Shown here: piece after piece, positions 47,051 through 55,776 of the stretch
How the letters are laid out: each line of letters starts with the position of its first letter
How positions within the stretch are numbered: the first letter of the stretch is position 1
Assembly: GCA_023251435.1 (NCBI GenBank)
Contig: JAHEYU010000005.1
Coordinates: forward strand, 1 to 64,000
From: Bacteroidota bacterium
Lineage (GTDB): Bacteria > Bacteroidota > Bacteroidia > Bacteroidales > Prolixibacteraceae
Direction of reading: 5' to 3'
Length of the DNA: 64,000 nt
Program-made: the position numbers and the translations under genes
Notes under the pieces: model-generated
Told to the model about the DNA's origin: nothing
Seen by the model: the letters and a program-made list of their open reading frames with translations, nothing else
Database searches by the model: none

Positions 47051-48322
47051 ATGAAGTACATTTTCCTCTTCCTCGCATTGTTGCTATTTACATATAAGTC
47101 TGAAGCGCAATTCAGTAAATTTTTCAAAGAAAAAACTTTAAGACTCGATTATTATCACTGCGGAAATTCCGGTTCGGAACAGTTTTTTTTCGACGAGCTG
47201 ATTGAGGAGCCATTCTGGGCAGGTTCGAGTACCAATCTGATTGATACCAACGGTTTGGGAAGTCATTTTGTTGAAGTTCGTACTTTAGATACCAGCGAGC
47301 TCATTTTTTCGCGCGGATATTGTACCCTTTTTGGCGAATGGCGTACAACTCCGGAAGCAAAAACCACCAGTCGCTGTTATCCTGAATCGGTGGTGATGCC
47401 TTTTCCCCGCGAAAAAGTGGTGGTATCAATCACAAGTCGCAATCCGGATGGAGATTTTAAAAAGATGTTTGAATACACGGTCGATCCGAAAAGCTATTTC
47501 ATAAAAAAGGAACGCGAAAATCTTCCGGTTTTTGACGTGGTTAATTCCGGAAATACTGCGGAAAAGGTTGACATTGTGCTGCTTCCTGAAGGATATACTG
47601 AAGGTCAGAAAGAACTTTTCGAGAAAGATTGTAACGAATTTGCGAAAGAATTCTTCAGGTATGCGCCATTTTCCCAAAATAAATCCAATTTCAATATTAG
47701 GGGAGTTTGGGCAGCTTCGAAGCAGGAAGGGCCCAGTATTCCGGGTGAAAATATCTGGAACAATACATGTTTCAAAGGTTCGTATTATACATTCGATTCA
47801 GAGCGTTACCTTATGGTTGAAGATTTTCAGGGAGTGCGCGATGTGGCCGGAAATGCGCCTTACGATTACATTTACATTCTCGCAAATACCGATAAATATG
47901 GTGGTGGCGGCATTTATAATTTCTACGGAATAAGCGCAGCCCATCATGTTGATGAAACCGGGAAAATTTACATCCACGAATTCGGCCATTTGTTTGCCGG
48001 ACTTGGCGATGAATATGTTGGGGGAGTTGAGTATTCCGATTTTTATCCGGTGAATGTTGAGCCCTGGGAACCAAACCTGACAACTTTGGTTGATTTCGAT
48101 AAAAAATGGAAAAATATGCTTCCCGAAGGAGCTTTGGTTCCAACTCCTGACAAACAGTGGAAGGAGAAAAAACTTGGTGTTTACGAAGGAGCTGGTTATG
48201 TAACCAAAGGTGTTTATCGCCCCTGGGTTAACTGCCTGATGAATAACTTACATACCATCGACATTTTCTGTCCTGTATGCGAAAAGGCAATTCAAGACAT
48301 GATTAACTTTCATTGCAAGTAG
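47051..48322 (+). CDS. secreted M64-family (IgA-peptidase-like) metallopeptidase
   Basis: A 423-residue exported zinc peptidase with signal peptide (YIFLFLALLLFTYKSEA). An N-terminal beta domain (about 20-160) precedes the M64 catalytic domain with VDIVLLPEGYTEGQKELF and the extended zinc motif HEFGHLFAGLGDEY near residue 313. The family is typified by an IgA1-cleaving enzyme of Clostridium; most members, including environmental ones, have unknown substrates. Confidence 0.92.
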   Translation: MKYIFLFLALLLFTYKSEAQFSKFFKEKTLRLDYYHCGNSGSEQFFFDELIEEPFWAGSSTNLIDTNGLGSHFVEVRTLDTSELIFSRGYCTLFGEWRTTPEAKTTSRCYPESVVMPFPREKVVVSITSRNPDGDFKKMFEYTVDPKSYFIKKERENLPVFDVVNSGNTAEKVDIVLLPEGYTEGQKELFEKDCNEFAKEFFRYAPFSQNKSNFNIRGVWAASKQEGPSIPGENIWNNTCFKGSYYTFDSERYLMVEDFQGVRDVAGNAPYDYIYILANTDKYGGGGIYNFYGISAAHHVDETGKIYIHEFGHLFAGLGDEYVGGVEYSDFYPVNVEPWEPNLTTLVDFDKKWKNMLPEGALVPTPDKQWKEKKLGVYEGAGYVTKGVYRPWVNCLMNNLHTIDIFCPVCEKAIQDMINFHCK

Positions 48323-48332
48323 GACATAAAAA

Positions 48333-48420
48333 CCCCCTGAAGTACGAATAGAGAAATTTTAACCAAGGTTAAAGTTTTCAGCACGCCATGACAAACGTAA
48401 ACTAGCCGTATTCAGGGGAT
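48333..48420. terminator. structured inverted repeat between convergent genes, candidate bidirectional terminator or small RNA
   Basis: CCCCTGAA (48334-48341) pairs with TTCAGGGG (48411-48418); TACG / CGTA extends the stem past one bulged G. Inside lies a second hairpin TTTAAC-CAAG-GTTAAA (48358-48373). The minus-strand reading ends in five T, the plus-strand reading in a T-rich tail. The loop (about 60 bases) is too long for an ordinary terminator. Confidence 0.5.
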
Positions 48421-48539
48421 TATTTTAATTTCTTTAATCAGAAAATAATAACAACCTGAATACAGAGTTGTTTACTCTTTGTTTTTATTTATTCGTAAAA
48501 CGCGTTATTGGGGTAAACTGAATTTCTTCCCGGCGTTTA

Positions 48540-49703
48540 TCAGTTGCGGGGCACAGCATAATTCAGTACATCTTCACGGGTAATTACTTTATCGCAGAGG
48601 ATAATCAGTCGTTCAATCACATTCCTGAATTCGCGGATATTGCCAGTCCACCTCATTTTTTGAAGTTCGCTTATCGCTTCCTCATCTACAGATTTAAGAG
48701 GAACGCCGTATTCCGTACAAATCAGATCAACAAAATAGTCGCAAAGAACTGGAATATCTTCAATCCTGTCATTCAGGTCCGGCACATGAATCAGAATAAC
48801 ACTCAGGCGATGATATAAATCTTCGCGGAAATTATTGGCTTCAATTTCGCGGGTCAGGTTTTTATTGGTAGCCGCCACCACACGCACATCAACTTTTATT
48901 TGGGCGTCTCCTCCAACACGTGTAATTACACTTTCCTGCAAAACACGGAGTACTTTTGCCTGTGCCGAAAGGCTCATATCGCCGATTTCGTCCAGAAAAA
49001 TGGTTCCGCCGGTTGCCTGTTCAAATTTTCCTTTTCGCTGCTTAATGACCGATGTGAATGCGCCTTTTTCGTGACCAAATAATTCACTTTCTATTAATTC
49101 TGAAGGAATCGCGGCACAGTTTACTTCGATAAACGGACCTTCGGCACGATTACTTTTTTCGTGCAGGCGGCGGGCAACCAATTCTTTCCCTGTTCCGTTC
49201 GATCCGGTAATCAAAACCCGCGCATCAGTTGCTGCAACGCGGTCAACCATGTCTTTAACCTTTTTAATGGCAGCCGAATTACCCACAATATCGAACCGTT
49301 TATTTACTTTTTTTCGAAGCACTTTGGTTTCGGTAATCAGCGTCGATTTATCCATTGCATTGCGCAATGTAATCAGTAAACGGTTCAGATCGAGTGGTTT
49401 TTCGATGAAATCGAAAGCTCCTTTTTTTATTGATTCTACGGCTGTATCAATATTTCCATGGCCCGAAATCATTATAACCGGTGTATCAGGTTTTAACTCT
49501 TCAACCTTCTGTAAAACTTCAATACCGTCCATTCCCGGCATTTTAATGTCGCACAAAATCACATCAAAATCGTTGGTTTTTAAAAGTTCCAGCGCTTTAA
49601 ATCCGTCTTCGGCCAGTTCAACCTGGTATTTTTCGAATTCCAAAATGTCTTTTAATGTATGGCGAATGCTGCGTTCGTCGTCAATGACTAATATTCTCGA
49701 CAT
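48540..49703 (-). CDS. NtrC-type response regulator lacking GAFTGA and Fis domains
   Basis: A 387-residue protein. Receiver domain (1-120): ILVIDDERSIRHTL, Asp in VILCDIKMPGMDG (about residue 53), MISGHGNIDTAVES, IEKPLDL. AAA+ domain (about 140-370): Walker A GSNGTGKE, Walker B GGTIFLDEIGDMS and arginine-finger region NIREFRNVIER. The sigma-54 contact loop normally reading GAFTGA is GAFTSV here, and the protein ends right after the AAA+ domain with no helix-turn-helix. It is followed by nothing cognate; the phosphatase gene ppx lies upstream. Confidence 0.9.
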   Translation of the reverse strand: MSRILVIDDERSIRHTLKDILEFEKYQVELAEDGFKALELLKTNDFDVILCDIKMPGMDGIEVLQKVEELKPDTPVIMISGHGNIDTAVESIKKGAFDFIEKPLDLNRLLITLRNAMDKSTLITETKVLRKKVNKRFDIVGNSAAIKKVKDMVDRVAATDARVLITGSNGTGKELVARRLHEKSNRAEGPFIEVNCAAIPSELIESELFGHEKGAFTSVIKQRKGKFEQATGGTIFLDEIGDMSLSAQAKVLRVLQESVITRVGGDAQIKVDVRVVAATNKNLTREIEANNFREDLYHRLSVILIHVPDLNDRIEDIPVLCDYFVDLICTEYGVPLKSVDEEAISELQKMRWTGNIREFRNVIERLIILCDKVITREDVLNYAVPRN

Positions 49704-49738
49704 GTTCCTGTTTTTTTACTGATAATAATTGCCCGAAT

Positions 49739-50659
49739 TTAGCTGAAAATTCGCTCGTATAAAACACCTTCACGAAGTGCAAAATCAGTTTGTGCGATTT
49801 TTTGAATGTTTAACCGGTCAACAATCAGTTTAATAAAAATAACCGATGGAACTATCATCTCAATCCGGATCGATTCCATTCCTTTCATAGCAGTTCTTTC
49901 CATGGTTGTTGAGTTGATCAGCACATTGTATATTCTGCTGAAATCCTGTATTGTTAGTTCCTGATAAATTCTTGTTTTCGTCCCGGGATCGGTCTGGTCA
50001 ATCAGATCGGCCAATGTGTCGAAGGCTCCTGAACAGCCTATTAGCCTGGAAATTTCTGTATTTCTGGTTTCATTCCAGAATTTTTCAAGTCCATTTTCAA
50101 AATAACTGATTATTCGGCTAATTTCTTCCGGAATAATAGGGTTGGAGGGAGGAATTTGTTCAATAATTCGGGCCATCCCCAAAGGAAAACTTTCTTTCCA
50201 GATTGGTTCACCAGCTTTTGTCAGGATAAATTCGTTGCTGCCTCCGCCAATATCAAGAATAAGCGAATGATTTTCTATTTCGCCAAAGGCCAGTTTTACG
50301 CCTTTAAAAATCAGGTCGGCTTCTCTTTCTCCTGAAATTACCAATAAATCAAGCCCGGTTTGCGATTTAATTTCCTGCTGAAACCAGTCTTTGTTGCTTG
50401 CATCTCTGATTGCTGAAGTTGCGATTATTAAAATTTCCGGAGTACCGTATTTACCAATTCGTTCCTGATGTTTTCTGACGGCGAGTATAGCCCGTTCCAG
50501 TCCATCTTCTTTCAGTTGATTCTTATCGATTCCGTTCTTTCCAAGTTTTACAACCTCTTTACCCTGATACAGAATTCGATAGTTTTTGTCCTGATATTCT
50601 GCAATTAACAAGTTGCAGGTATTGGTTCCGAGATCGATTACAGCGATTCGTTTGCTCAT
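49739..50659 (-). CDS. Ppx/GppA-family exopolyphosphatase
   Basis: A 306-residue actin-fold phosphatase. AVIDLGTNTCNLLIAE (phosphate-1 motif), IATSAIRDASN, SGEREADLIFKGV and ILDIGGGSNEFIL (phosphate-2) are all present. The short form lacks the C-terminal HD domain. It degrades polyphosphate or pppGpp; the sequence does not decide between them. The ATG at 50659 (MSKRIAVIDLG) is preferred over one 12 codons upstream. Confidence 0.92.
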   Translation of the reverse strand: MSKRIAVIDLGTNTCNLLIAEYQDKNYRILYQGKEVVKLGKNGIDKNQLKEDGLERAILAVRKHQERIGKYGTPEILIIATSAIRDASNKDWFQQEIKSQTGLDLLVISGEREADLIFKGVKLAFGEIENHSLILDIGGGSNEFILTKAGEPIWKESFPLGMARIIEQIPPSNPIIPEEISRIISYFENGLEKFWNETRNTEISRLIGCSGAFDTLADLIDQTDPGTKTRIYQELTIQDFSRIYNVLINSTTMERTAMKGMESIRIEMIVPSVIFIKLIVDRLNIQKIAQTDFALREGVLYERIFS

Positions 50660-50748
50660 TTTTCTGAAAATATTTTTGTCAACCGAAGGTAGCATTTCGC
50701 GATCAATTCAGTTTCTTTCATCCTGAATAATATTCTTCAGGAAATAGA

Positions 50749-50772
50749 AAAGGCCGGTAAAAACCAGCCTTT
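50749..50772 (-). terminator. hairpin terminator after cysK
   Basis: On the minus strand AAAGGCTGG pairs with CCGGCCTTT (one G-U pair) across a six-base loop, followed by T-rich sequence, six bases past the cysK stop. Confidence 0.65.
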
Positions 50773-50777
50773 CTCGA

Positions 50778-51689
50778 TTAAAACAATCCTTCGATTGATA
50801 AATATCGTTCGCCTGTATCGTAGGCAAAGGTGAGTATCTTTGAACCAGCAGGTAATTCTGTTATCTTTTTGGCAACAGCTGCCAACGAGGCTCCTGAAGA
50901 AATTCCAACAAACAAACCTTCTTCTTTGGCGGCACGGCGGGCATAATCAAAAGCTTCGTCTTTCGAAACCTGAATTACTCCATCGAGCAATTCTTTTTTG
51001 CAATTAACCGGAATAAAACCTGCACCGATTCCCTGAATAGGATGGGGACCGGGCGATCCACCGCTAATCACCGGTGACAATTCGGGTTCAACAGCAAACG
51101 ATTTGAGGTTTGGAAAGCTTAGTTTCAACACTTCAGTAACTCCGGAAATATGGCCTCCTGTTCCAACTCCAGTGATAAGGTAATCAAAACCTTCAGGAAA
51201 ATCGGCGATAATTTCTTTGGCTGTATTCTGTTTGTGGGCAGTAATATTTGCTTCATTATCAAACTGCGATGGAATCCACGAATCAGGTGTTTCAGCCGAC
51301 AGTTCAACAGCTTTGGCAATGGCACCTTTCATTCCAAGTTCTCTTGGTGTCAAAACAAGTTCAGCGCCGTAAGCAGTCAAAATTCTTCTCCGTTCAATAC
51401 TCATCGATTCGGGCATTACCAAAATCAGTTTATATTTTTTTACAGCTGCAACTAAGGCCAGACCGATACCGGTATTTCCTGATGTGGGTTCAATCAATAC
51501 GCTTCCGGGTTTCAGAATTCCTTTAGCTTCAGCGTCTTCAACCATCGAAAGGGCAATACGGTCTTTTATACTGCCGCCCGGGTTGGTTTTTTCCACTTTT
51601 ATATATACTTCGTATCCGGCCGGATACAGGTTGTTGATTCGAACCAGGGGACTATTACCAATGGTTTCCAAAATGTTGTTTACTTTCAT
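50778..51689 (-). CDS. cysK: cysteine synthase (O-acetylserine sulfhydrylase)
   Basis: A 303-residue PLP enzyme making cysteine from O-acetylserine and sulfide. The PLP lysine is in [11 protein letters not shown] (about residue 43), the substrate loop is [11 protein letters not shown], the phosphate-binding loop [11 protein letters not shown], and [12 protein letters not shown] closes the active site. The length matches CysK. The ATG at 51689 ([14 protein letters not shown]) is chosen because the frame further upstream runs through a terminator hairpin. The leader holds a cysteine-codon peptide and attenuator (see 51717-51881). Confidence 0.95.
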
Positions 51690-51716
51690 CTTATTGTCAT
51701 TTTTAGGGTTATAAAC

Positions 51717-51746
51717 AAAAAAAGCCTTCCGGTGTTCGGAAGGCTT
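51717..51746 (-). terminator. intrinsic terminator/attenuator in the cysK leader
   Basis: Perfect 10-bp stem AAGCCTTCCG / CGGAAGGCTT with a five-base loop and seven T on the minus strand, 28 bases upstream of the cysK start and 32 bases past the end of the leader peptide ORF. Because it stands between the leader promoter and cysK, cysK expression from that promoter needs read-through. Confidence 0.9.
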
Positions 51747-51778
51747 CGACATATTATCTCTTTTTCTGAGTTTCAAAT

Positions 51779-51853
51779 CTAACTTGAAAACATACCTTCT
51801 CCTGTCTGTTTATAACAGCAGCACATATACATGTATGAGAAGTTTGATTTCAT
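51779..51853 (-). CDS. cysK leader peptide with three consecutive Cys codons
   Basis: A 24-codon ORF (ATG at 51853, TAG at 51779-51781) whose centre reads [13 protein letters not shown]. The Cys codons TGC TGC TGT occupy 51815-51823. It begins about 14 bases after the predicted transcript start and ends before the terminator hairpin. A GAAGG segment (51795-51799), 16-20 bases past the last Cys codon, could pair with CCTTC in the first arm of the terminator and act as a weak antiterminator. Cysteine is otherwise rare, so three in a row directly before a cysteine synthase points to regulation by charged tRNA-Cys. There is no experimental evidence. Confidence 0.75.
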
Positions 51854-51873
51854 TTTTAAATATTTTATTGTTG

Positions 51874-51904
51874 CAAGTATAAGAATAATATTTAAATAAA
51901 ATAC
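51874..51904 (-). promoter_or_regulatory. promoter of the cysK leader
   Basis: Minus strand: TTG near 51904-51906, about 22 bases, then TATACTTG (51874-51881), one mismatch to TAnnTTTG. It sits between the stop of the ABC permease and the leader ORF. Confidence 0.55.
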
Positions 51905-51920
51905 AATTTTATCTTTTATT

Positions 51921-53267
51921 TTAGTTTTTATAAAACAACCACTTAACAATTTCTTTAAATGTCACTTTTTTACCGTACATTAAAATTCCTGTTCTGTAAA
52001 TTTTCCCTGCTACCCATATTGTTCCAAGAATAGTTGAAATTAACAAAACCATCGAGAGCACAATTTCCCAAACCGGAACACCAAATGGAATACGAACCAT
52101 CATTGTTACCGGCGAAGTAAGCGGAATCATTGAAGCCCAGAAAGCAAGTGGTCCTTCAGGATTTTTAGCTACTGCAAAAAGAATAATAATTGAAAAGATG
52201 AGCGGCATGGTAACCGGAAGCATCATTTGCTGGGCATCTTCGTCGCTGTCAACAGCCGAGCCAATTGCTCCCATAAGTGAAGCATATAATATGAAACCAC
52301 CAATAAAATAGAAGAACAAAGCGAAAATAATGAGCGGTATATTTAGGTTGCCAATCATTCCAAGTATTTCAATTACTTTGTTTTGAGCTTCAGGAGTGGC
52401 GGTTGCTATTTGCCCCATTGCTTGTCCCGACATGATGTTTTGAGCCTGCGCCGCAGTTTCGGCAGATCCACCTCCGATGAAAGCTGTTAATCCAGTGGTA
52501 ATTGCGATGCCGAGTATTATCCATATTGCAATTTGTGTCAGGCCAACAAGTCCGATTCCAACAATTTTTCCGAACAACAATTGAAATGGTTTAACTGAAG
52601 ATATTATCACTTCCACAATGCGGCTCGATTTTTCTTCCATCACCCCGCGCATTACCATAGTTCCGTATATAAAAACGAACATGTAAATCAGGAATCCTGC
52701 TGCATAACCAATGGCCATTGCAATTTCGGTAGAGCTTTTTACGGCTTCGCCTTCTTCGCCCAATTTGATGGTTTCGACTGTAATGTCTGTTTTAGTAGCC
52801 GAAAGTTTTTTTTCCAGATCGGGGACACCGGTTTCATCAATCACCTGCTTCCGCTTTTCACCTTCAATAATATTCTCGATACGCCGGGTGATCATATTTT
52901 TAATATCAAAAGTTACCTGCTTATCTGAAATCATTTCGGCTCTGTTGGTGCTTAAGATGTTCACCGGAATATGCAATACTGCATAATACTTACTCGATTT
53001 GAAATTTTTATTTAATTCATCAAATTCGGGAGCAGGAATGTATTGAAACTTGGTAAATTCATTGCTTTCAAGTCGATTCAGAATCAATCCGGTTGGGTCA
53101 TAAACGGCAATTGTGCGTTCTTCCTTGTCATCCAATGTTGCCAGGTAGGCTGGCAGAATGGTCAGGGCAGCCATCATAAGCGGAACCAAAAGCGTCATTA
53201 TAATGAATGACTTTTTCTTTACGCGTGTAAGGTATTCACGTTTTAAAATGAGGATAGACTTATTCAT
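51921..53267 (-). CDS. ABC-2 type exporter permease (NatB-like)
   Basis: A 448-residue permease. TM1 near 20-40 (FIIMTLLVPLMMAALTILPA) is followed by a large extracytoplasmic domain (about 45-180) and five to six C-terminal helices from residue 190, with FVFIYGTMVMRGVMEEKSSRIVE as the ABC-2 signature (key part MRGVMEEKSSRIVEV). The ATG at 53267 (MNKSILILKREY) is preferred. The ATPase gene lies 94 bases upstream, so the two form an Na+- or drug-export-type ABC pair; the substrate is unknown. Confidence 0.9.
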   Translation of the reverse strand: MNKSILILKREYLTRVKKKSFIIMTLLVPLMMAALTILPAYLATLDDKEERTIAVYDPTGLILNRLESNEFTKFQYIPAPEFDELNKNFKSSKYYAVLHIPVNILSTNRAEMISDKQVTFDIKNMITRRIENIIEGEKRKQVIDETGVPDLEKKLSATKTDITVETIKLGEEGEAVKSSTEIAMAIGYAAGFLIYMFVFIYGTMVMRGVMEEKSSRIVEVIISSVKPFQLLFGKIVGIGLVGLTQIAIWIILGIAITTGLTAFIGGGSAETAAQAQNIMSGQAMGQIATATPEAQNKVIEILGMIGNLNIPLIIFALFFYFIGGFILYASLMGAIGSAVDSDEDAQQMMLPVTMPLIFSIIILFAVAKNPEGPLAFWASMIPLTSPVTMMVRIPFGVPVWEIVLSMVLLISTILGTIWVAGKIYRTGILMYGKKVTFKEIVKWLFYKN

Positions 53268-53304
53268 CTGGGTATATTTTTGTTTTTTAATGTTCACTTT
53301 TATA

Positions 53305-53358
53305 AGTCGCAGTATTTAGTCTCAGTGTTCAAATACTCCCTACTGCGACTGTGACTGT
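53305..53358. repeat. GTCGCAGTA/TACTGCGAC inverted short repeat
   Basis: AAGTCGCAGTATTTAGTC and, about 25 bases on, TACTGCGACTGTGACTG form an inverted repeat in the gap between the ABC ATPase and permease genes. TACTGCGACTG also occurs near 1895. Confidence 0.6.
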
Positions 53359-53361
53359 AAA

Positions 53362-54294
53362 CTATCGGAGGATTTCGCGGTTATTTTGTTCTACTACATG
53401 GATAAAAACATCGTTCATGCTTGGGATTATCTCTTTAAATGATACGATTTCGAATTGATTCATGAGTAATTTTAATAACTCATTGTTAGAGTTGCCGTTC
53501 AAAAACTGAACTTTAATTTGTTTCAGTTGTGAGCTTTCGTCGTGTTCGAGCACGTTGAAATGCGAACCCAAATGATATTGTATATTGGGTGTTTCTCCAC
53601 GGTAAATAATTTCGAAAGTATTGGTCTTGAATTTTTCACGAACCTGATCAATTTGCCCGTCGAGAATCTTTTTTGATTGGTTGATCAGGGCAATATGGTC
53701 GCATATTTCTTCTACCGACGACATATTGTGGGTCGAAAAAATAATCGTTGTTCCTTTTTTCTTTAACTCAAGAATTTCATTTTTAAGCAAATTGGTATTT
53801 ATCGGGTCGAATCCGCTGAACGGCTCATCAAAAATCAGAAGTTTTGGCTGATGAATAACTGTGGTTATAAATTGCACTTTCTGAGCCATTCCTTTCGACA
53901 GTTCCTCAACCTTTTTGCCCCACCATGCCTGAATTTCAAATTTCTCGAACCAGAATTTTAAACTTTTCAGCGCATCTCTTTTCGACATTCCTTTGAGTTG
54001 GGCCAGGTATAGCGCCTGTTCTCCAACTTTCATCTTCTTGTACAATCCGCGTTCTTCGGGCAGATAACCAATCATGCTAATATCATCGGCTTTCAACGGT
54101 CTGCCTTCAAAATACAATTCGCCACTATCGGGCGCTGTAATTTGGTTAATGATTCGGATTAAAGTAGTTTTTCCCGCACCGTTTGGTCCGAGTAAACCAA
54201 AGATCGAAGCTTCTTTTACCGAAATGCTTACTGAACTTAATGCCACATGACCGGCATATTCTTTAACAACATTGTTTGCCTGAAATATTTCCAT
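53362..54294 (-). CDS. ABC transporter ATPase (NatA-like)
   Basis: A 310-residue ATPase: Walker A GLLGPNGAGKTTLI, signature LSKGMAQKVQF, Walker B LLIFDEPFSG and H-loop STHNM. Residues 215-310 form a C-terminal extension with a mixed alpha/beta domain of the DUF4162 kind. Partner of the downstream permease. Confidence 0.93.
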   Translation of the reverse strand: MEIFQANNVVKEYAGHVALSSVSISVKEASIFGLLGPNGAGKTTLIRIINQITAPDSGELYFEGRPLKADDISMIGYLPEERGLYKKMKVGEQALYLAQLKGMSKRDALKSLKFWFEKFEIQAWWGKKVEELSKGMAQKVQFITTVIHQPKLLIFDEPFSGFDPINTNLLKNEILELKKKGTTIIFSTHNMSSVEEICDHIALINQSKKILDGQIDQVREKFKTNTFEIIYRGETPNIQYHLGSHFNVLEHDESSQLKQIKVQFLNGNSNNELLKLLMNQFEIVSFKEIIPSMNDVFIHVVEQNNREILR

Positions 54295-54391
54295 AATGAA
54301 TGAATTGAAAACTTTAGTATAGGTGTTAAATGTAACCCAATTGTTACAGGCAGAATCGTGATTTCAGAAAATAAATTGCCGTTTAAAGGTA

Positions 54392-54940
54392 CTATCCGAG
54401 GTTTGTTTCGGTTGTAAACAAACTGAAATGAACACTTCCGTAACGACGCAAATCCTTGAAATTCGGGTGTCCGGAATAGTCGAAATGTCCTGAATGTTCC
54501 AAAATGAACAGACCATCCGGTTTTAACAGTTTATTGTTGAAAATCAGATCGGCTACTTCGGCGAACTTTGGATGATCGTAGGGCGGGTCTGCAAAAATAA
54601 GGTCAAACTGTTCATTGATGCGTTTTGCAAAAACAAAAGCATTCGATTTTACAATCCGGATGTTTTTTTCACCCAATTTTTCGATTACTTCTTTAATAAA
54701 AACAATGTGTGCCGGGTTGATCTCAACGGCGGTTACATCCGGGCATCCGCGCGAGGTTAGTTCGTAGCTTATACTTCCGGTGCCTGAAAACAAATCGAGT
54801 GCACGAATACTCTCAAAATCGATTGAATTTTGCAAAACATTGAAAAGACTCTCTTTGGCCATGTCGGTTGTTGGCCGGGCTTTAAATGTTTTTCCGGGAG
54901 TAAAAACCCGACCTCTGTATTTTCCGCCAACTATACGCAT
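54392..54940 (-). CDS. rsmD: 16S rRNA (guanine966-N2)-methyltransferase
   Basis: A 182-residue class I methyltransferase. MRIVGGKYRGRVF opens the RsmD family, ARPTTDMAKESLFNVL follows, ALDLFSGTGSISYE is the SAM motif and FADPPYDHP the catalytic N6/N2-type motif. It overlaps the DUF3822 gene by ten bases, a pairing seen in many Bacteroidota. Confidence 0.93.
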   Translation of the reverse strand: MRIVGGKYRGRVFTPGKTFKARPTTDMAKESLFNVLQNSIDFESIRALDLFSGTGSISYELTSRGCPDVTAVEINPAHIVFIKEVIEKLGEKNIRIVKSNAFVFAKRINEQFDLIFADPPYDHPKFAEVADLIFNNKLLKPDGLFILEHSGHFDYSGHPNFKDLRRYGSVHFSLFTTETNLG

Positions 54941-55776
54941 AGATGTGTATTTAACAAGCTTACAAACTGGTGTTTCTGTACTTTCTGGAACAGGTTTCCG
55001 TAATTGATATCTGTTGAAGGCTTCAAAAACTGAACATTACTGATATATTTCTTCAATTGCCTGATATAGGCAGAGTCATCGGCTACGTAACCGCCAATTA
55101 AAATTTCATCACGTTCCGGGTTTATTTGCAGATTCTGGCAAATGTTTAGGGTGTAATACAAAAAATCTGATTCATTTTTGAAATAGAAGCTATTGTACAA
55201 GTCGATATTCATTCCTTTTAGAGCAATTATCCTCACATATTTCTTCTCGAAATTAATCAGAAGTGTATTTTCTCTTGCATTTCGCTGATTAACAGCAGAA
55301 TTCAAAAAAGAAATTGATTTGTGGATAAATTTGAATTCTGTAAATTTTCGGTTCAGCAAATGCATTAATTCTTTTGGATAGCTAAAAATGAGTTGCTGAT
55401 TAAACCCCGGCAATTCGTTCACGCAGATTTCTTCGTTTTTATTGATTTCGTTGGTGAGTTCGGTCACCTTGGTGTATAATTCGGCGTCGGAATATACTTT
55501 TGGAATGAGGGAAGCCCTGTTAGTTGAATAGGCAATTGTAATTGTCTGATAGGAGGTATTCAGCATATCTTCCTGATCAAAAATGGCTTCGATCTTTTTT
55601 GTCAGAAATTGCAGTTTCCCAACTATTAAAGGAATATGACGAATAACAAGCAATTTCTTTCGAATAATGTCGAGGATACAAAAAGAAAATCCATCCAGGC
55701 CAACCTGGATGGATAGTTGATATTCTGATGCGTGTTTTAAATCGAAATTATCGTCAATAAAATTTAACTCATGCAT
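54931..55776 (-). CDS. DUF3822 family protein
   Basis: A 281-residue protein matching DUF3822: YQLSIQVGLDGFSFCILD at the N terminus, IAYSTNRASLIPKVYSD in the middle and ILIGGYVADDSAYI near the C terminus, suggesting an actin-like (pilus/MreB-type) fold. Function unknown. It is translationally coupled to rsmD and starts ten bases after the next upstream gene's stop. Confidence 0.85.
   Translation of the reverse strand: MHELNFIDDNFDLKHASEYQLSIQVGLDGFSFCILDIIRKKLLVIRHIPLIVGKLQFLTKKIEAIFDQEDMLNTSYQTITIAYSTNRASLIPKVYSDAELYTKVTELTNEINKNEEICVNELPGFNQQLIFSYPKELMHLLNRKFTEFKFIHKSISFLNSAVNQRNARENTLLINFEKKYVRIIALKGMNIDLYNSFYFKNESDFLYYTLNICQNLQINPERDEILIGGYVADDSAYIRQLKKYISNVQFLKPSTDINYGNLFQKVQKHQFVSLLNTHLCV

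Follow-up and report, generated by a model that had tools for sequence, protein, structure and literature searches.

Ribosome-mediated attenuators of the trp, his, leu, thr and phe operons of Proteobacteria place codons for the end product in a leader ORF, together with an antiterminator that competes with an intrinsic terminator. Among leaders that carry cysteine codons, the mycobacterial peptides are reportedly leaderless. Cys leaders have been predicted in Actinobacteria, with no conserved terminators according to the accessible part of that report (Seliverstov 2005, PMC1262725), and the available portion of another source describes those of mycobacteria under the name translation attenuation (PMC13236596). 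Among the alpha-proteobacteria, uORFC-8-2 of Rhodobacterales lies before cysS, the cysteinyl-tRNA synthetase gene, and combines two tandem Cys codons with an intrinsic terminator in a predicted ribosome-mediated attenuator, for which the available text mentions neither Met clustering nor tandem modules (PMC8632094). Within the phylum of the DNA described here, leader peptides before amino-acid operons, including pheA and hisG, were inferred from transcripts of Flavobacterium psychrophilum, and no Cys or sulfur leader is named in the accessible sections of the paper (PMC9723704). Small ORFs are also described in 5' UTRs of B. thetaiotaomicron, and the sections at hand name no Cys or sulfur leaders (PMC7366714). 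A search of the open-access literature, outside which most subscription journals lie, returned no report of Cys leaders for Bacteroidota sulfur genes. Because Cys leaders have been predicted elsewhere, this kind of control is already known; what appears to be new, as far as the open-access literature shows, is its occurrence in this host group and before these genes, together with the mixing of Cys and Met codons and the tandem modules.

Here we describe a cysK locus in a 64 kb stretch of Bacteroidota DNA (the window, meaning the whole stretch that was analysed). The 217 bases before cysK are very probably a ribosome-mediated transcription attenuator, which most likely senses charged tRNA-Cys and perhaps also tRNA-Met. 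Like the attenuators of Proteobacteria, it has end-product codons in a leader ORF, a competing antiterminator, an intrinsic terminator and, in the window's genus, a putative protector helix; it differs from them in its Cys (with Met) codons, its host phylum, its sequence and the tandem modules found before some sulfite reductase operons. The actinobacterial leaders, as the accessible part of their description presents them, likewise place a run of Cys codons in a short ORF ahead of cys genes, whereas here a terminator is present and conserved and an antiterminator is present as well. Sequence comparison shows a conserved ORF, conserved Cys codons, a terminator and antiterminator strands complementary to it.

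The initial annotation had described a 24-codon leader ORF, a Cys run, a terminator and cysK, in that order on the minus strand, and this layout was found at the coordinates it gave. A promoter-like element between the permease stop and the leader (51874..51906, minus strand, read directly) consists of TTG (51906-51904), 22 bases and TATACTTG (51881-51874). The leader ORF (51779..51853, minus strand, read directly) runs from an ATG at 51853 to a stop at 51779. Its candidate regulatory codons, TGC TGC TGT (Cys-Cys-Cys; 51815..51823), are supported by a codon table of 15 genus leaders and by an excess of Cys runs over those of all other amino acids in upstream regions, both given below, and are directly preceded by Met-Tyr-Met codons (51824..51832), a possible second (Met) input. 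The beginning of the ORF contains segment 1 (51837..51852), the 5' strand of a putative protector helix deduced from paired cells in A2. Its partner, segment 2, is the antiterminator strand GAAGGT (51794..51799), complementary to the terminator 5' arm; as the initial annotation had noted, GAAGG (51799-51795) occupies bases 16-20 past the last Cys codon. Segments 3 and 4 form the intrinsic terminator predicted from sequence and fold (51721..51747), a hairpin GAAGCCTTCCG-AACAC-CGGAAGGCTTT (51747-51721) of -16.2 kcal/mol that leads into a T run; 31 bases lie between its end and the cysK start. The spacer from leader stop to hairpin (51747-51779) carries a partly conserved AAAAGAGATWATAT in the genus and lies outside the proposed mechanism.

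The controlled gene, cysK (50778..51689, minus strand), encodes cysteine synthase A (TIGR01139, E 3e-120; 401 bits against a curated cut-off of 351), and the nearest named relatives, at 90-92% CysK identity, are two Prolixibacteraceae MAGs and one unclassified Bacteroidota MAG. Upstream, as context outside the switch, lie a gene for an ABC-2 type permease (51921..53261, minus strand; PF12698, E 3.7e-56) and the gene for its ATPase, on the same strand as cysK. An Rfam scan of 48000-55000 returned nothing above threshold; the best leader-family match at the locus, Phe_leader, scored 22.7 bits against a gathering threshold of 55. Neither Pfam nor NCBIfam matched the leader peptide.

The pattern TGYTGYTGY occurs five times on each strand of the window. 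Eight terminator-like hairpins were found there by script (three on the plus and five on the minus strand), and among the ORFs ahead of them that at 51853 alone carries a Cys run, defined as three or more Cys in five codons. Terminator prediction in 50600-54400 gave five, barely more than the 3.6 in shuffles, the leader hairpin being among the longest of the five, and a sigma-70 scan of the same region gave no excess of promoters, 10 against 10.1 in shuffles, using a model that does not cover Bacteroidota promoters. The promoter consensus of Bacteroidota is of the -7/-33 type; among the 50 clusters of leaders defined below, 31 have a TAnn(n)[T/C]TTG-like box ahead of the leader, compared with 10.1 expected from shuffles. 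When a detector for all 20 amino acids was applied to 157 cysK upstream regions with 61 hairpins, Cys was returned in 40 regions, Leu in 11 (several of which look like the +1 frame of TGCTGC) and each of the others in five or fewer. The same detector returned Cys in 15, Met in 5 and Asn in 4 of 30 sulfite-reductase regions with 30 hairpins. On the reverse strand of the two sets Cys was returned in none, but only 14 and 10 hairpins are present there, respectively.

Conservation was followed in 61 genomes: 23 of the genus (the window's own included), 14 others of the family and 24 others of the order. Twenty of the 23 genus genomes have cysK with readable upstream DNA, two being cut by contig ends and one giving no match. 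Joint conservation of leader and hairpin, which the initial annotation had expected among relatives, is seen in most of these: a leader precedes cysK in 17 of the 20, but the remaining three (L015, L016 and L018) keep the hairpin right behind the permease gene and have cleanly lost the whole leader and its promoter. Three Cys stand in a row in 15 of the 17 leaders, L023 among them, the exceptions being L011 (Cys-Ser-Cys) and L019 (two Cys). The initial annotation had stated that it would be refuted by Cys codons not conserved among relatives that keep the hairpin, and this check came out in its favour. In 15 aligned genus leaders (L019 and L023 were left out of the 17), Cys 11 and Cys 13 never change and are encoded by either Cys codon, one leader has Ser in place of Cys 12, Met 8 is present in 14 and Met 10 in all 15. 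Variability at third codon positions is about double that at the other two (0.078, 0.067 and 0.136 for the three positions inside the ORF, against 0.242 for the spacer after the stop). In the terminator, all 135 cells in A2 are paired and eight of nine pairs never vary.

Beyond the genus, 11 of the 14 other family genomes have a close cysK, preceded in nine by a Cys leader (L022, L024, L026, L028, L029, L030, L180, L181 and L182); L027 and L031 have a close cysK and no Cys leader, and a close cysK is missing from G023, G025 and G035. Sunxiuqinia indica (L065), a cultured relative, also has the element. The peptide differs from genus to genus, but a Cys run stays. A 21-residue leader consensus was drawn from 16 rows, two of them from other genera, and a profile of 16 leaders gave 18 strong matches in the 61 genomes (E 3e-10 or better), most of which are the profile's own rows; all lie before cysK, and no second strong locus was found.

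For the comparison of structures, 75 leader-hairpin rows were assembled, one of them entered twice, and the 74 different units were grouped by shared 9-mers into 50 clusters, which may remain related at depth and come from a genome sampling that is not an even census. Sixty-two rows were collected by a script that asked only for a Cys run and a hairpin, 11 (the duplicate included) were added by hand after inspection under a looser rule of two Cys in four, and two came from L143. L143 and L147/L211 had entered via a pattern that already demanded pairing and were kept in the antiterminator tests.

Across other Bacteroidota the layout recurs with different letters: the Cys run is followed by a strand that can pair with the 5' arm of the terminator, and then by the terminator itself. 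The genus pair is GAAGG:CCTTC, and others are TCTGTCCGG:CCGGACAGA (L193), GGAAGAGC:GCTCTTCC (L212) and GAGAGGCT:AGCCTCTC (L226). Tested against dinucleotide shuffles, the antiterminator reached p<0.05 in 35 of 50 clusters (Fisher 9e-32) and missed this level in 15. Cognate pairs gave -14.65 kcal/mol against -11.1 kcal/mol with permuted partners, a value as low being reached in 0 of 20,000 permutations (z -9.9); without the hand-added rows, 32 of 43 clusters reached p<0.05 and the permutation result was again 0 of 20,000. The GAAGG:CCTTC antiterminator put forward by the initial annotation has counterparts in other lineages that beat shuffled and swapped partners, but the window's own pair is short and alone does no better than shuffles (p=0.18). 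L182 also has a Cys leader whose antiterminator is no better than chance (p=0.62). Different genera read GGGAAGG in different frames (GEG, GKV, RKD), so the motif is kept as RNA. Of the 16 leaders at the eight tandem loci, 14 match their own terminator more closely than that of the neighbour, the exceptions being one in L215 and one in L143. The distance from the last Cys codon to the start of the strand has a median of 12 nt (quartiles 8.25-15), an offset that fits the downstream footprint of a stalled ribosome.

Within the genus, the ORF start pairs with the antiterminator strand in 95.7% of 210 cells (A2), compared with 49-64% when slid. Covariation of this protector helix is modest, as 17 of 500 shuffles reach its score and 37 of 500 its share of paired cells. 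Over the clusters, 12 of 50 gave p<0.05 (median p 0.25; binomial against 0.05, 5e-6), so the helix is a feature of some lineages at most.

In the proposed mechanism, transcription would begin just upstream of the leader. With charged tRNA-Cys (perhaps tRNA-Met) scarce, the ribosome would stall at the Met-Tyr-Met-Cys-Cys-Cys codons and cover segment 1, leaving segment 2 (GAAGG) free to capture the emerging terminator 5' arm (CCTTC), and polymerase would then read through into cysK. With Cys plentiful, the ribosome would run over segment 2 to the stop, the terminator would form and transcription would end before cysK. In an untranslated leader of the genus, segment 1 would pair with segment 2 and termination would be the default, as it is without translation in trp. 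We infer the transcription start, translation, stalling and any Met input from this arrangement.

Folding was modelled with the ribosome footprint kept unpaired, on a transcript that stops where the terminator loop ends. Over the 50 clusters, the modelled probability that the arm is captured upstream averaged 0.70 for a ribosome halted at the last Cys codon, as against 0.37 for one at the stop; capture was more than 0.1 higher at the Cys codon in 40 clusters and more than 0.1 lower in one. The window model gave 0.60 at the first Cys codon, 0.21 at the stop and 0.12 without a ribosome. At the last Cys codon its value was 0.60 (0.12 at the stop) when pairing across the ribosome was forbidden, and 0.13, below the 0.21 at the stop, when such pairing was allowed. 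That stalling raises read-through had been flagged as a guess in the initial annotation, and the modelling favours the direction guessed, predicting more read-through into cysK when Cys is short. In full-length equilibrium folds the terminator is favoured in nearly all clusters; since the whole hairpin wins at equilibrium almost everywhere, control would have to be kinetic.

The hairpin might instead be a plain terminator of the upstream ABC permease operon, with the Cys-run ORF incidental. In the window the gap between permease stop and leader start is just 67 bases, and in L015, L016 and L018 the hairpin, directly behind the permease stop and without a leader, can exist as a plain terminator. 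We nevertheless consider this explanation improbable for the locus, as the Cys codons are conserved wherever the leader exists, the promoter-like box is three times commoner before leaders than expected, and this arrangement also occurs ahead of cysE-cysK, of a cysM-like gene and of sulfite reductase, where in L272 the upstream neighbour is metX. Less probable again is translational or Rho-dependent attenuation of the actinobacterial type, in which the hairpin would be of little weight and the leader would influence either cysK translation or Rho. Such a scheme would agree with the name translation attenuation given to the experimentally studied mycobacterial Cys leaders in the available portion of the source (PMC13236596), and with actinobacterial Cys leaders for which, in the accessible part of the report, no conserved terminator was found (PMC1262725). 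The hairpin behind each of the 74 units carries no evidence on this point, because the units were chosen for having one. The match of the leader strand to the terminator 5' arm, however, goes far beyond chance and would be superfluous for Rho or translational control, and the window hairpin stops short of the cysK start, leaving it uncovered.

We give hardly any credence to the ORF as a working small Cys-rich peptide, binding metal or acting in redox binding, rather than as a regulatory leader. Residues beyond the Cys run are conserved in the genus too (GEG-M/F-S), but they coincide with the antiterminator strand, which other genera read in another frame, and a functional peptide argued from the GEG-MFS residues was dropped for that reason. 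Outside the Cys/Met run the peptide is poorly conserved between genera, and the lack of Pfam and NCBIfam matches also speaks against a peptide function.

Where cysE, a serine O-acetyltransferase gene, is followed by cysK, the leader lies before cysE in 12 loci; the type protein scores above the NF041874 cut-off and below that of TIGR01172. Most sulfur genes were picked as queries. A search of 395 class genomes with the exact GGAAGG/CCTTCC pattern was not guided by genes and matched seven genomes, two of which (L143, L147) have leaders before new sulfur genes. The other five matches have no terminator-like hairpin within 200 nt, look like chance and were rejected. A single GGAAGG/CCTTCC pattern is inadequate because the letters of the terminator arm vary too much. 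In L143 (1309-1548), a cysM-like gene and a gene for a JAB-domain protease follow two successive Cys leaders with two terminators, and in L147 the leader precedes a nitrite/sulfite reductase gene. The L147 reductase, used as a query, had matches in 59 of 247 genomes. Thirty of these loci were read, 19 of which have a Cys or Cys-Met leader (15 found by script and four added by hand), and seven, by script, have two leader-terminator modules. The reductase reaches the curated cut-off of neither the sulfite nor the nitrite model and is named sulfite reductase because of its neighbours. Among three operons that were fetched (L271, L272 and L273), the reductase gene of L273 is followed by genes for uroporphyrinogen methyltransferase, siroheme synthase/TauE, CysH and homoserine dehydrogenase, cysD lies downstream in L271, and metX lies upstream in L272. 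L272 has a TACATTTG box before its first leader, and the distance from the first T run to the nearest start codon of the second Cys run is at most about 40 bases, a gap so short that the two modules probably act in series.

By the criteria used, 111 of the 157 cysK upstream regions have no leader; the regions were cut at 1300 bases and include paralogues, short contigs and other phyla. Loci of Hymenobacter, Pontibacter and Spirosoma have none by these criteria, nor have six of seven Flavobacterium loci, L133 among the six. In L133 (Flavobacterium suaedae), a leader beginning MFLDQIYMACCKCCFRIREG (520-600) was seen by eye upstream of the gene preceding cysK, and a TACGGGAG strand matches its terminator arm; this locus is outside the statistics. 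Three of 11 class-level cysK loci have a leader, one of them identical with L094. Both Ignavibacteriales loci L104 and L129 carry a Cys leader and a terminator before cysK; their leaders end in EDIA and share a GGAGGAYATTGCCTGA stretch after the CCC run. In Pyxidicoccus fallax (Myxococcota, L075), an ORF MTLPLTTTGAQCCCCCRVACACCLAGPEHWESA with eight Cys codons lies about 200 bases upstream of cysK, no terminator was found there by script, and it may be a separate kind of Cys attenuation. Thirty cysE loci were read, and none of the 18 from the window's family has a Cys leader; the two matches among the 30 (L245, L248) lie outside the family and are leaders that had already been found ahead of cysE-cysK. 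The cysE of the window's own genome has no Cys leader within about 1.5 kb upstream.

Met residues are frequent around the Cys runs. Of the 358 other residues that lie no more than four codons from the run, 69 are Met, compared with 33 of 763 elsewhere in the leaders (p 9e-15), and internal in-frame ATG makes up 102 of 1323 codons against 41 of 2546 in other frames. Alternative starts could account for some of these ATGs, but hardly for those that follow the Cys run. In the cysK set, 23 of 203 residues near the run are Met, a higher share than the 14 of 353 farther away (p 0.001); for sulfite reductase and cysM leaders the count near the run is 46 of 155 (p 2e-5 against the cysK set); the Met share by gene set follows what the operons make. 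We see an even chance that many Bacteroidota control sulfur assimilation through a family of attenuators reading Cys and Met jointly, some of them stacked in series; these would read mainly Cys before cysK and cysE, and Cys plus Met before sulfite reductase - siroheme - cysH - homoserine dehydrogenase operons. The possible second input by Met, the tandem modules, the wider sulfur gene set and the protector helix of the genus go beyond the initial annotation.

To our knowledge, cysteine sensing in Bacteroidota has been little described, and a leader that counts Cys and Met codons would be a protein-free answer to how these bacteria sense cysteine. The 74 different leader-hairpin units are a ready comparative set, and L015, L016 and L018 represent a natural loss of leader and promoter before cysK. 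If the modules are indeed stacked, antitermination would be needed twice for read-through and the response would be steeper; stacked modules and two amino acids per leader would, if true, be an unusual elaboration of the textbook mechanism.
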